From: a bacterium
GTDB taxonomy: Bacteria; Zhuqueibacterota; QNDG01; DSAB01
DNA: 64,000 bases
Direction: 5' to 3'
Assembly (NCBI GenBank): GCA_011388275.1
Contig: DSAB01000119.1
Location: 105,285-169,284, forward strand
The notes under the pieces were generated by a model that saw nothing but the letters and a program-made list of their open reading frames with translations, had not been told where the DNA came from and did not search any database. This document shows, piece by piece, positions 19,192-25,058 of the stretch (positions are counted from its first letter, which is position 1; every line of letters begins with the position of its first letter). The position numbers were made by a program, and so were the translations under genes.

Positions 19192-21801
19192 TTATAAGGT
19201 CCTGGCTGTTTCGACGAACTGATAAACTTCGATCAAATCGCCGGGTTGAATATCCGAACCGGTATCCAGGGTGATTCCGCATTCGTATCCGGAAGTAACT
19301 TCTCTGGCATCTTCCTTGAATCGTTTGAGCGAAATGATTTTCCCTTCATGTATCACCTTGCCGTCACGAATCAAGCGGGCATGGGCATTGCGAACCGCCT
19401 TTCCGCTCTGAACGGAACATCCCGCTATTTGACCGATGCGCGACGCTTTGAAGACTTCCCGGATTTCCGCTACACCGATGACTTCTTCAGAAATTTCCGG
19501 TTCCAGCAAACCGGAAAGAGCCAGCTTGACATCATTGACCGCATCATAGATGACTTTGTACAATCGAATATCAATACTCTCACGCCTGGCCAGTTCTTTG
19601 GCCTGCGGGTTGGGTGATACATGAAAACCGATGATAACGGCATTGGACGCCTCCGCGAGTAAAACATCGGTTTCTGTGATTGCGCCCACACTTTTATGAA
19701 TGATGCGCACAGTGACATCTTCTGTGCTCAGGGCCATGAGAGAATCAATAAGCGCTTCCAGCGATCCATCCACATCGGCCTTGACGATCACGGACAGCTC
19801 CTTAACCTCGCCTTCGGCGATTTGTCTGGAGATCTGATCCAGAGTAATCCTTCGGAATTGCCGAAATCCCTGTTCTCTCTTCAACTGCTGGCGCTTTAAG
19901 CTGATCTCTTTGGCTTCCTGTTCGGAGTCTACGACCACAAGAACATCACCGGCCTGGGGCATTCCTGTAAATCCCAGAACCTGGACCGGAGTGGATGGAG
20001 TCGCCTTTTTAATGCTTCTGTCTCTTTCATCAAACATCGCGCGAACCTTTCCGTGATTCTGTCCGGCCACAAATACGTCTCCGACTGTCATGATCCCCTT
20101 TTGCACCAGCAATGTTCCAACAGCACCTCTACCCTTGTCCATACGAGCTTCAATAATCACCGCCCTGGCATGACCGTGGGGATTGGCTTTCAATTCCAGA
20201 ACTTCCGCTTCAAGAAGAATCATTTCAAGCAAGCGGTCCACGCCTTCACCGGTTTTAGCGGATATCTCGGCGCATTGTACTTTCCCCCCCCATTGCTCGA
20301 CCAGGACATTGTGTTCGGAAAGATTCTTTCTGATTTTTTCCGGTTCTGAACCCGGTTTATCAATTTTATTGATGGCAACAATAATAGGAACAGCCGCCGC
20401 CCTGGCGTGATTAATCGCTTCTATGGTTTGCGGCATCACACTGTCATCCGCAGCCACAATGAGTACGACGATATCGGTAACCTGCGCTCCACGGGCCCTC
20501 ATGGCGGTAAAAGCCTGATGTCCGGGTGTATCCAGGAAAGTAATTTTCTTATCACCGAGGTCGACGACATAGGCACCGATGTGCTGAGTGATGCCACCCG
20601 ATTCACCGGCTATGATATTGCTTTTACGGATATAATCAAGGAGCGATGTTTTCCCATGATCCACATGACCCATAACCGTAACAACGGGCGAACGATATTC
20701 CATCAGCGCAGCATCGTCCTCCTCTTCTATTAATTCATCGAGTCTCTCTTCTCCATATTCGGTCAGAAATCGCACATCATATCCGAACTCATCGGCCACC
20801 ATCAAAATCGTATCCTTGTCCAAACGCTGATTGATCGTAACCATCAAACCAAGAGAAATGCAGGTCTGAATCACATCGCTGGCCTCGACACCCATAATGT
20901 TTGCCAATTCGGCCACTGATGTGAATTCAGTGGCTTTTAACAAATGATGTTCTTCCTGAACAACGTCTTCGATCTCTTTTTCCTTGCGGCGTCTTCGCTT
21001 TTTCGCGGTATCTCCGCTCATCCTGGCCAGTGTTTCCCGAATGGAAGCCTCTATCTCTTTCTCATCAATCTGAACGGCCGTTTTTTTCCTTCGGCGCCTT
21101 TTCTTCTTTTTGCCTGGAACTCCGCCTTCTTTCATAGCGTCTTCAAGCGTCTGCTCTGGCCGTGCACGGCCCTTTTTCCTCTTTTTTGATTTCTCCGCTT
21201 CAGCCTTGTCTTCTTCCAGTGCCACAACAGGTTTTATTTTCGGATGACGCTTCAGTTGACGCCGAGGCTTCTCTTCGACTTCTTTCTCTTTGGTTTTTTC
21301 GGCTTGTTCTGGCGCTTTCTTTCCTGAAATTTCTTTTTCTCTTGTCTTCTCTGTAACAGCCCGGCGCTGTTCTTTCTTTGCGGTTTCTTTTATTTCTTCT
21401 TTGACTTTCTCTGTTTGGTCTTCACGGACTGCTTCTTCAACGGGTTTTTCTTTCTTTTCCGCCTTTTTGACTGCCACCTTCGGCTTGGTGACAATTTTTA
21501 CACGTTCAAATACATCCCCCTTGGAAGCTTCCAGCACTTCATCGATTTCATGCCGTATAGCCTCACGCCTGGCTTCCTCTTCCTGTTTTTTCTCCTGAAT
21601 CTTTTTCCTGAAATCAGGCGTCCTGTCGGTCTCCTCTTCCTTTTTAATAAAATGCTCTGAAATCAGTGAATACATATCCTCCGTTACGGGAACCATATGA
21701 TTTCGCACGGATATTTTATGATTGTGCAAAAAATCAATAAGCGCTTCCGTGGAGATATTAAATTCCTTTGCTGCCTGATAAATTCGTTTTTTCTTGGACA
21801 T
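19192..21801 (-). CDS. infB: translation initiation factor IF-2
   Basis: VTVMGHVDHGKTSLLD, DTPGHQAF, NKIDKPG; Lys/Glu-rich N-terminus; start chosen at MSKKKRIYQAAKEFNIS. Confidence 0.96.
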   Translation of the reverse strand: MSKKKRIYQAAKEFNISTEALIDFLHNHKISVRNHMVPVTEDMYSLISEHFIKKEEETDRTPDFRKKIQEKKQEEEARREAIRHEIDEVLEASKGDVFERVKIVTKPKVAVKKAEKKEKPVEEAVREDQTEKVKEEIKETAKKEQRRAVTEKTREKEISGKKAPEQAEKTKEKEVEEKPRRQLKRHPKIKPVVALEEDKAEAEKSKKRKKGRARPEQTLEDAMKEGGVPGKKKKRRRRKKTAVQIDEKEIEASIRETLARMSGDTAKKRRRRKEKEIEDVVQEEHHLLKATEFTSVAELANIMGVEASDVIQTCISLGLMVTINQRLDKDTILMVADEFGYDVRFLTEYGEERLDELIEEEDDAALMEYRSPVVTVMGHVDHGKTSLLDYIRKSNIIAGESGGITQHIGAYVVDLGDKKITFLDTPGHQAFTAMRARGAQVTDIVVLIVAADDSVMPQTIEAINHARAAAVPIIVAINKIDKPGSEPEKIRKNLSEHNVLVEQWGGKVQCAEISAKTGEGVDRLLEMILLEAEVLELKANPHGHARAVIIEARMDKGRGAVGTLLVQKGIMTVGDVFVAGQNHGKVRAMFDERDRSIKKATPSTPVQVLGFTGMPQAGDVLVVVDSEQEAKEISLKRQQLKREQGFRQFRRITLDQISRQIAEGEVKELSVIVKADVDGSLEALIDSLMALSTEDVTVRIIHKSVGAITETDVLLAEASNAVIIGFHVSPNPQAKELARRESIDIRLYKVIYDAVNDVKLALSGLLEPEISEEVIGVAEIREVFKASRIGQIAGCSVQSGKAVRNAHARLIRDGKVIHEGKIISLKRFKEDAREVTSGYECGITLDTGSDIQPGDLIEVYQFVETARTL

Positions 21802-21901
21802 TTCGATTCCGTTGATTTTCCTGACACAAACAGATTGCAGGTCCATTCGACCGAAACGGCAGAAGCCGGATGTTTAGGGGAATCCACCGCTCTTTATTTA
21901 A

Positions 21902-23260
21902 TTATTCTTCAAGCACTCTTTCTGCAGATTCAGTGTCATTCTCTTCACTGGTTTCCAGACCGGTTTCGTTCTTCTCAATATCCGGTTCGAGCGTATCCAT
22001 AGGTCCGGTTTCTGCTTCTTCGACCTCCTCATAGTAAGAACCGAGAATTTCCCAGATCTTTTCAACTGTTTTATCTCCAAAACCCTTCAGTTCCATGATG
22101 GTTTTCCGGCCTGCATCAAGAACCTCTTCAGCAGACTCGAAACCCGCGCTGACCAGTTTGTCCAGCACATTTTTTGACAGCTCCGGAATATCAGTCAGCA
22201 TCAGCGATTCCTCTTTCTGCTGTTCCAAAAGCCATTCCGATTCCTTGACCGTTGTAATTTCATAGCCGGTCAGTATGGAGGCCAGCTGTCTGTTTTGTCC
22301 TCCTTTACCGATAGCCAAAGAGATTTGATCATCGGAAATAACCGCCGTGGCTGATTTATTTTCTTCATCGATCAGAACCTTTAAAGGTTTGGCGGGACTC
22401 AGCGCACGTTGAATAAAAATCTGCGGCTCACTGCTCCAATTGATCACATCGATCTTTTCGTTGTTCAGTTCTTTGACAATGGCCTGAATCCGGACTCCTT
22501 TTAAACCTACACAAGCACCCACAGCGTCGATCCGCTTGTCGTTGGAATACACACCTACTTTGGCACGATCTCCGGGAAATCGGGCCACTCGCTTCAGCTC
22601 GATGATTCCGTCATAGATTTCCGGAACCTCTATCTCGAAAAGACGAACCAAAAACTGGGGATCGGCTCTTGATACGATGACTTCCGGTCCGCGACTGGAC
22701 TGAGTGACGGCTTTAATGATCGCGCGTATGGAATCTCCCCGATGAAAACGTTCATTATAGATCTGCTCCGATTTGGGGAGCGATACTTCCATTCGATCCA
22801 CGGAAACCAGAATCTCTTCCCGATTGATCTGACGGACATCTCCGACAATGATTTCTCCGACTCGGTCACTGAATTCGGCAAAAATGACCTCTTTTTCCGC
22901 TTCCCGTATTTTCTGATTCAACCCCTGCTTGGCTGATGTAATGAGGCGCCTTCCAAAACTTGAGGGATCGATAATTTCAACAAATTCATCACCCAGCTCC
23001 AGATCGGGTTCAACCCGCTGTGCGTTTTCCAGTGAAATCTCTGTGACGGGATCGGTAACCTCTTTGACAATGCTCTTAACCTGATAGATTTCGACCTCTC
23101 CTTTATCCATGTTCACAAAAATATCGAAATTATCCGAAGTTCCATATTTTCGTTTAATCATGGAGAGAAAGAGATTTTCCAGTATTTCTCCCAGAACTTC
23201 CCGCTGGATGTTTCGCTCTTTGGCGATCTGTGTAACGGCTTCAACGATATTGATATTCAT
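21902..23260 (-). CDS. nusA: transcription termination/antitermination factor NusA
   Basis: MNINIVEAVTQIAKERNI start, KH domain region DAVGACVGLKGVRIQAIVKELNNEKIDVI; track ORF extended upstream to 23371. Confidence 0.95.
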   Translation of the reverse strand: MNINIVEAVTQIAKERNIQREVLGEILENLFLSMIKRKYGTSDNFDIFVNMDKGEVEIYQVKSIVKEVTDPVTEISLENAQRVEPDLELGDEFVEIIDPSSFGRRLITSAKQGLNQKIREAEKEVIFAEFSDRVGEIIVGDVRQINREEILVSVDRMEVSLPKSEQIYNERFHRGDSIRAIIKAVTQSSRGPEVIVSRADPQFLVRLFEIEVPEIYDGIIELKRVARFPGDRAKVGVYSNDKRIDAVGACVGLKGVRIQAIVKELNNEKIDVINWSSEPQIFIQRALSPAKPLKVLIDEENKSATAVISDDQISLAIGKGGQNRQLASILTGYEITTVKESEWLLEQQKEESLMLTDIPELSKNVLDKLVSAGFESAEEVLDAGRKTIMELKGFGDKTVEKIWEILGSYYEEVEEAETGPMDTLEPDIEKNETGLETSEENDTESAERVLEE

Positions 23261-23276
23261 GGAAGCCTTCTCCTCC

Positions 23277-23738
23277 TTACTTCCATTTAAGTTGAATGGA
23301 TGCGGATTGAATCTCCGTATATTGATATTCTTCTTCACCCTGCCTGGTTCGGACTCGAAAGATCGAATCATCGGCTGCGATCAACGTACCCTGAACCAGT
23401 ACGCAATCACGGGTTCTCAGACATTGAAGGACTATATCCCTTCCAATATTTCTCATAAAATCACCCGGTGTTGTCAATTTGCGGTCAACACCCGGTGAAG
23501 AAACTTCAAGTCGATAATCCTGAGTTAAAATGGAATCACCGACCAGGTCCAATTCGAATCGTATTCTCCGGGTCAGAGCCACACAGTCTTTTATGGTGAC
23601 TCCTCCTTCCTGATCAATAAATACCTGAATAACTGCCTTTTGCGCGCTGCCTCCGATTTTCAACTCGACCATCTCATACTGCTGCCCTTCCACCAATTTG
23701 GCAATCATCCGCCGCAATTCTGACCGGTCCGAAGTCAT
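23277..23738 (-). CDS. rimP: ribosome maturation factor RimP
   Basis: VFIDQEGGVTIKDCVALTRRI, YRLEVSSPGVDRKLTTPGDF; synteny with nusA. Confidence 0.95.
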   Translation of the reverse strand: MTSDRSELRRMIAKLVEGQQYEMVELKIGGSAQKAVIQVFIDQEGGVTIKDCVALTRRIRFELDLVGDSILTQDYRLEVSSPGVDRKLTTPGDFMRNIGRDIVLQCLRTRDCVLVQGTLIAADDSIFRVRTRQGEEEYQYTEIQSASIQLKWK

Positions 23739-23757
23739 TCGTCTCCCATAAATAAAA

Positions 23758-23778
23758 AAGTGGGTAAATTACCCACTT
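23758..23778 (-). promoter_or_regulatory. terminator-like hairpin in rimP leader
   Basis: AAGTGGGTAA-A-TTACCCACTT near-perfect palindrome; on the minus strand followed by TTTTATTT, 20 nt upstream of rimP ATG. Confidence 0.65.
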
Positions 23779-23788
23779 CGCGAACTCT

Positions 23789-23817
23789 AATATACAAAAT
23801 AATTTGTTATTTTGCAA
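23789..23817 (-). promoter_or_regulatory. sigma70-type promoter for rimP-nusA-infB operon
   Basis: Minus strand TTGCAA-17 bp-TATATT; spacer contains inverted repeat CAAAATAA-CAAA-TTATTTTG. Confidence 0.6.
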
Positions 23818-23828
23818 CAAAAAACACG

Positions 23829-23848
23829 TTCCAGGAGCGTCCTTGGAA
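23829..23848 (-). terminator. terminator of response regulator/TPR gene pair
   Basis: Minus strand TTCCAAGGACGCTCCTGGAA hairpin followed by CGTGTTTTTT, just past TPR gene stop. Confidence 0.55.
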
Positions 23849-23858
23849 TAAGACTCTT

Positions 23859-24527
23859 CTATAATGATTTCAACAGGTATTCCGCCTCCTGGGCAACCTG
23901 CGATTCAGGGTAATTCTCAATAATGTTTTGATAGGCCATTCTGCTTTTTTCCTTCATTTCAGCTTTCCGATAACAGCGTCCGGCGTCTTTCCAGTAAAAA
24001 GGGCTGTAAAAACCTTTTCGGCTGAGATCAGCGGCTTTTTGAAACCATTCAGCGGCTTCAGCAAAATGACCTTGATTTTCCAGGGAAGCTCCGATTCCCG
24101 CCATACTGGAAGCCTTGTAAAGCTTAATATCTCCATAGTCGTTTATATACATTCGAAAATGCTTCTCGGCATTTTCATAGTCCTGCCGCTGAAAATAAAT
24201 ATCCCCCAAATAATAAGCGGCTTTCCCCGATGAAGAAGTGCCTTCATAGACAGTCATGATCTCCGTCATTGAAGAGATCGCCCTGTCATAATCACCGGCT
24301 AAAAAAACCTGTTCCGCAATAGCCAATTCCGCCGCGGCGGCCTGTTCGGCTTTTGCCTTGCTTCTTACCATCATAATGGAAATGAAGGCGACTGCCAGAA
24401 GACCGATTACTATGTAATGTGTCTGTTTGGCATACCGCCGATACCATTTCTGAACCTTTACGTAAAACGTAACCAAACCGTCTTCCCGTATTTCCATTTT
24501 GCGGATTTTTTTCCGAGGTCTTAACAT
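23859..24527 (-). CDS. membrane-anchored tetratricopeptide-repeat protein
   Basis: TM segment YIVIGLLAVAFISIMMV and TPR-like repeats (AAYYLGDIYFQRQDYENAEKHF...). Confidence 0.75.
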   Translation of the reverse strand: MLRPRKKIRKMEIREDGLVTFYVKVQKWYRRYAKQTHYIVIGLLAVAFISIMMVRSKAKAEQAAAAELAIAEQVFLAGDYDRAISSMTEIMTVYEGTSSSGKAAYYLGDIYFQRQDYENAEKHFRMYINDYGDIKLYKASSMAGIGASLENQGHFAEAAEWFQKAADLSRKGFYSPFYWKDAGRCYRKAEMKEKSRMAYQNIIENYPESQVAQEAEYLLKSL

Positions 24528-24932: not shown

Positions 24933-24985
24933 TCTGCCCCCCGATTTTCATCGTCTCACTTTTTTCGCACCGATCAGTCAAACAG

Positions 24986-25058
24986 TACCCCAGGCAGGAG
25001 TTGAACCTGCGGCCAACGGTTTAGGAAACCGCTGCTCTATCCTCTGAGCTACTGGGGC
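24986..25058 (-). tRNA. tRNA-Arg (anticodon CCU)
   Basis: Minus strand GCCCCAG-TA-GCTCAGAGGATAGAGC-A-GCGGT-TTCCTAA-ACCGT-...-GCAGGTTCAACTCCTGC-CTGGGGT-A; cloverleaf with CCT anticodon; 3' CCA not encoded. Confidence 0.93.

Follow-up and report, generated by a model that had tools for sequence, protein, structure and literature searches.

Known Leaders of the rimP-nusA-infB Operon

The rimP-leader was called the most ubiquitous bacterial attenuator in 2010 (Naville and Gautheret, PMC2965389). It is described there as a short hairpin with conserved GGGc...gCCC arms followed by a U-stretch, located in the 5′ UTR of rimP-nusA-infB at 4–130 nt from the gene and lacking a visible antiterminator, and NusA is the best candidate for its regulator (PMC2965389). 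In Bacillus subtilis, NusA is reported to control its own synthesis by stimulating intrinsic termination in the 5′ leader of its operon (Mondal et al., 2016, according to the review PMC12288461). Escherichia coli NusA is also described as regulating its own operon (PMC6511841). In Streptococcus agalactiae, the RNA of the gbs0413-gbs0418 operon terminates 31 nt after the start site, and feedback by NusA was proposed (PMC4448216).

The leader of this operon in the window, i.e., the whole stretch of 64,000 nt analyzed here, is of this known kind, in an uncultured lineage. All of the rimP-leader features that were tested are found on the minus strand: the GGG 5′ arm and CCC 3′ arm (GUGGGU...ACCCAC at 23779-23757, invariant in 39/39 relatives), a U-stretch directly 3′ of the stem (T6, 23759-23754), a position in the 5′ UTR of rimP-nusA-infB with 15 nt between T6 and the rimP ATG (23738), and the lack of a competing antiterminator. 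An earlier note, made from the sequence, took this leader as unusual, a description that does not hold in view of the 2010 account (PMC2965389). Two differences from that account can be pointed out: in the window's phylum, the hairpin is found at a near-fixed distance of 9–14 nt from the −10 box, and related hairpins precede nusA in genomes without detected rimP, a case absent from the passages on the rimP-leader.

Similar likenesses and differences are seen with the other systems. As in S. agalactiae, this operon begins with an intrinsic terminator; start and stop were measured there (PMC4448216) and are predicted here, and the likeness is one of layout. B. subtilis shares the intrinsic termination in the 5′ leader of the operon; stimulation by NusA is reported there and predicted here, where the analysis covered the genomic association of the hairpin with nusA. 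With about 180 nt (PMC2965389), the leader of B. subtilis exceeds that of the window in length. In the E. coli metY-rimP-nusA-infB leader (t1/t2), a GGGC...GCCC hairpin with a T-tract, ACTGGGCTTTAGGCCCTTTTTTT, is located just before rimP, as in the window; the E. coli leader differs in having a second, tandem terminator (CCCC...GGGG) further upstream as well as the tRNA gene metY.

Organization of the Operon and Its Leader

Pfam searches confirmed the gene order RimP, NusA, and IF-2 on the minus strand. The first gene, rimP (23277-23738; RimP_N PF02576, E = 2.4e-18), is followed by nusA (21902-23371; NusA_N PF08529, E = 8.9e-34; KH_5, E = 2.1e-27) and infB for IF-2 (19192-21846; IF-2, IF2_N, and GTP_EFTU domains), and the open reading frames further downstream look, judging by sequence, like DUF503, rbfA, nrnA, truB, ribF, rpsO, and pnp. 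Among named NusA proteins, the closest comes from a Calditrichaeota assembly, with 58% identity. Upstream of the operon lies a gene for a TPR-repeat protein (23859-24527), whose end is at 23859; several relatives (e.g., L003, L011, and L021) have coding sequence for a similar-looking C terminus ahead of rimP. Further away, a tRNA-Arg (CCT) gene is encoded on the minus strand at 24985-25058 with a promoter-like pair, TTGCCT...TAAATT, just upstream (around 25108).

The operon is preceded by a near-consensus promoter of the housekeeping type, spanning 23817-23789 on the minus strand, in which the −35 box TTGCAA (23812-23817) and the −10 box TATATT (23789-23794) are separated by 17 nt, all letters being placed as the earlier note had read them. 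From the usual spacing of 6–7 nt after the −10 box, the start site is predicted at about 23781-23783. The hairpin noticed between the promoter and the rimP ATG is indeed present, together with its T-tract, at 23779-23754. Its 10-pair stem, GAAGTGGGTA-ATT-TACCCACTTT (23757-23779, minus strand), carries a GUGGG/CCCAC core and is recognized by its sequence, by conservation in the phylum, and by a covariance model. The 3′ tail is T-rich, and T6 (23754-23759) overlaps the outermost A-U pairs of the stem. A putative ribosome-binding site, GGGAG, is located at 23743-23747. The RNA energy of the hairpin is −12.4 kcal/mol, and the structure is retained when the first 40 and the first 75 nt of the predicted transcript are folded; with a few nt only before the stem, a competing antiterminator would not fit in on the 5′ side. 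A generic terminator scan picked up the hairpin among three sites against 1.7 expected, so it is not special by composition alone.

The most probable reading of this arrangement, to which we assign a probability of about 0.7, is that of a rimP-leader-type transcription attenuator close to the promoter, through which NusA feeds back on rimP-nusA-infB, where start site, termination, and sensing of NusA are all predicted. An RNA started at the housekeeping promoter would fold from about +3 to about +25 into the GUGGG/CCCAC hairpin, followed by U6. RNA polymerase would then either terminate at the hairpin, setting free an RNA of about 30 nt, or read through into rimP-nusA-infB. NusA, a product of the same operon, would stimulate termination at this hairpin, and a high level of NusA would thus lower the expression of the operon. 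In this sense we infer autoregulation of NusA in the window's organism.

Conservation of the Leader Hairpin Within the Phylum

Conservation, not composition, singles the hairpin out. A strict pattern, AGTGGG-N3-10-CCCACTTTTTT, was run over 82 genomes of the phylum. It matches the own genome only once, at the leader site, and gives 71 matches in 69 of the 82 genomes, while a reversed-pattern control matched 1/82; for 68 of the 71 matches, rimP was matched 16–88 nt downstream on the same strand. Of the 13 genomes that the strict pattern missed, nine have a rimP match, all of them with a variant hairpin (9/9), and in the other four, which are 56–86% complete, no rimP was detected. The variants differ by a longer loop or by a 3′ arm reading CCCGC or CCCAT, and the stem of L162, UGGGCCC, is shifted. 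With covariance model R1, the leader site is top-ranked in its own genome (36.3 bits; next, 26.1 bits).

The leaders of 39 genomes from 31 genera of the phylum were inspected, and the hairpin is found in every one of them, with a T-G pair in the stem of L015. In each of the 39 leaders, as aligned, a TTG-type −35 box and a TATATT-like −10 box precede it. The promoter fits best with a 17-nt spacer in 39/39, and GTGGG begins 9–14 nt past the −10 box; the fit favors spacers of 17–18 nt and the TTGCAA/TATATT consensus, so that the exact register is partly imposed, but both boxes can be made out in the raw sequences. The leader hairpin is real and strongly conserved. The comparison of rimP-operon leaders among relatives, put forward as a check in the earlier note, gave a conserved hairpin with covarying stem pairs.

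Would such a hairpin need any feedback? A strong stem and a perfect T6, complete by themselves with no antiterminator seen, could also give a constant read-through that is independent of NusA, i.e., a constitutive promoter-proximal terminator passing a fixed fraction of RNA polymerase without control by NusA or another factor. However, it would be wasteful to put a constant brake on a near-consensus promoter in every one of the 39 leaders, a GUGGG core conserved across phyla would be needless, and B. subtilis is reported to attenuate this operon under the control of NusA. We regard a constitutive terminator as rather unlikely.

A Probable RNA Hairpin Rather Than a DNA Site

The earlier note left three options for the hairpin, a DNA operator, promoter-proximal attenuation, and a 5′-terminal stabilizing hairpin, and attenuation is the best supported of them, by the conserved RNA-type stem and T6. 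At the first position on the inner side of the core, T-A, C-G, T-G, and A-T all occur, and the two bases pair in 96% of 73 sequences of the phylum, whereas independent sides would give 68%, a comparison among related sequences that does not amount to a probability. These pairs were counted by script, as the variable pair that closes the loop is misplaced in the MAFFT alignment A1. The fourth pair outward, in Verrucomicrobiota, is A-T in nine cases and G-C in ten; since detection in Verrucomicrobiota and Chloroflexota demanded three outward pairs, the full pairing of these three is by construction and not evidence. Wobble G-U pairs take the place of Watson-Crick pairs in several lineages. The spacing from GTGGG to CCCAC is 7–11 nt in the 39 leaders and shorter elsewhere, and T6 is kept on the 3′ side only, invariant in 39/39.

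Because of the covarying stem pairs, the tolerance of G-U, the variable loop, and the one-sided T6, a transcribed hairpin with a U-tract, i.e., an intrinsic terminator acting in RNA, is favored over a DNA operator. At about +3, AAGTGGGTAATTTACCCACTT forms a near-perfect palindrome, to which a repressor could bind just past the promoter, but the distance between the half-sites varies, mismatches of the T-G type are tolerated on one side as G-U would be in RNA, the T-tract has no counterpart on the other side, and other phyla show widely differing positions with respect to the promoter. A DNA operator is very unlikely. A hairpin shielding the mRNA from decay would agree with a stem beginning a few nt from the predicted 5′ end; nevertheless, it leaves the invariant T6 (39/39 leaders) unexplained, and other phyla have the hairpin further from the −10 box, which makes stabilization of the mRNA very improbable. 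The strict conservation of GUGGG/CCCAC goes beyond the needs of a terminator by itself, a point against the attenuator reading.

The Hairpin Upstream of nusA Without Detected rimP

The pattern was also scanned in a sample across GTDB contigs, giving at least 115 matching stretches. Among the 115 matches listed, 51 are directly upstream of rimP, including, by record titles, those of Acidobacteria, Nitrospirae, Cyanobacteria, deltaproteobacterial groups, Bdellovibrionaceae, Marinimicrobia, Chlorobium, Omnitrophota, and Calditrichaeota. Another 19 of those listed are directly upstream of nusA with no rimP between; the record titles assign them to Chloroflexota, Verrucomicrobiota, and Planctomycetota (e.g., L047, L079, L082, L109, and L121). 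A 20th nusA case among the listed matches, on a Pelagibacteraceae contig, was left out, nusA being further away. The remaining 44/115 include many symmetric hairpins flanked by an A-tract and a T-tract, which look like ordinary two-way terminators, and some at contig ends.

RimP_N was found in none of the 19 genomes with the nusA hairpin (among the matches listed), which are mostly metagenome assemblies and may be incomplete. For comparison, RimP_N was detected in both rimP-bearing comparison genomes and in 10/14 control genomes, some of the latter set being archaea. Furthermore, in nusA leaders taken without selection, the hairpin is present in 20/30 Verrucomicrobiota and 22/30 Chloroflexota, against 0.7% in dinucleotide shuffles; both counts are lower bounds, as a few negatives have a cut or misplaced flank or a near-miss hairpin by eye. 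In the nusA leaders of L193 and L194, from the phylum of a Spartobacteria genome, GGCGGG...CCCGCC with an interrupted tail (TTATTTTTT) is seen as a diverged form of the hairpin.

What is new here is that the hairpin stays before nusA even in bacteria where rimP was not found. The retained hairpin suggests that the operon product being sensed is NusA and not RimP. RimP, the ribosomal-subunit maturation factor, or another product of the operon might bind the hairpin as the feedback signal: the conserved stem sequence suggests specific recognition, and RimP is named as a possibility by Naville and Gautheret (PMC2965389). The hairpins before nusA in the 19 listed genomes without a RimP_N match speak against RimP, and feedback by RimP or another product is judged improbable, with IF-2 or other operon products as possible signals. 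On the reading of NusA-sensing attenuation, one may go further and regard the GUGGG/CCCAC hairpin as an ancient sequence-specific sensor of NusA (or of NusA with RNA polymerase), belonging to nusA and not to rimP, which several phyla would have retained when rimP was lost and which in the window's phylum would be fused with the promoter into one module. This extension is tentative, and we consider it possible though doubtful.

Elements Around the Promoter

The 8-bp inverted repeat CAAAATAA-CAAA-TTATTTTG, covering the spacer and part of the −35 box (23796-23815, approximate to 1–2 nt, minus strand), exists as reported in the earlier note and is modestly improbable in its own sequence (P about 0.01, mononucleotide shuffles). 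It is not conserved even in the nearest relative and is at chance level in most of the relatives' leaders, so that it was rejected as a part of the system and is probably nonfunctional. Strong repeats around the −35 box are confined, among the relatives' leaders, to L003, L021, and L030, members of the window's order of which the latter two belong to one genus. There, near-perfect inverted repeats of 10–11 bp are centered near the 3′ end of the −35 box of the rimP promoter (e.g., ATATTTTCCTTGCATAAAAGGAAAATAT) and exceed the local composition; a lineage-specific operator is possible for these three.

The terminator that had been assigned to the upstream TPR gene (23819-23848, minus strand) has the letters described, TTCCA-A-GGA-CGC-TCC-TGGAA at 23848-23829 followed by T6, and is weak as a terminator: the stem is bulged, its energy is −6.8 kcal/mol, 4 nt separate the stem from T6, and the generic terminator scan did not report it. 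Thus the observation as a whole stood for the letters and the leader hairpin, not for the promoter repeat or a strong upstream terminator.

Coverage by Rfam Models

A scan of the whole window at Rfam gathering thresholds found the tRNA-Arg alone. The Rfam model for rimP, RF01770 (102 positions; cut-off, 47 bits), gave no match at the leader site in a search of the own genome; its best matches there are located elsewhere, at up to 18.6 bits (L040-L045, chance), and it exceeds the cut-off in 1/14 control genomes. A permissive Rfam scan of the leader gave sub-threshold chance matches only. The L20_leader model (RF00558) was rejected at 18.9 bits, E = 0.26, below its cut-off of 58.7 bits. The Rfam rimP model is narrow, and the general short hairpin is without a working model there.

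Significance

A general model of the hairpin would help annotation, because the narrow Rfam model missed the leader site. For a general transcription factor such as NusA, the control of its level in the cell is a matter of basic interest. The 2010 account left open to which product of the operon the widespread rimP-leader responds, and the genomes in which the hairpin precedes nusA with no rimP seen make this question directly testable.
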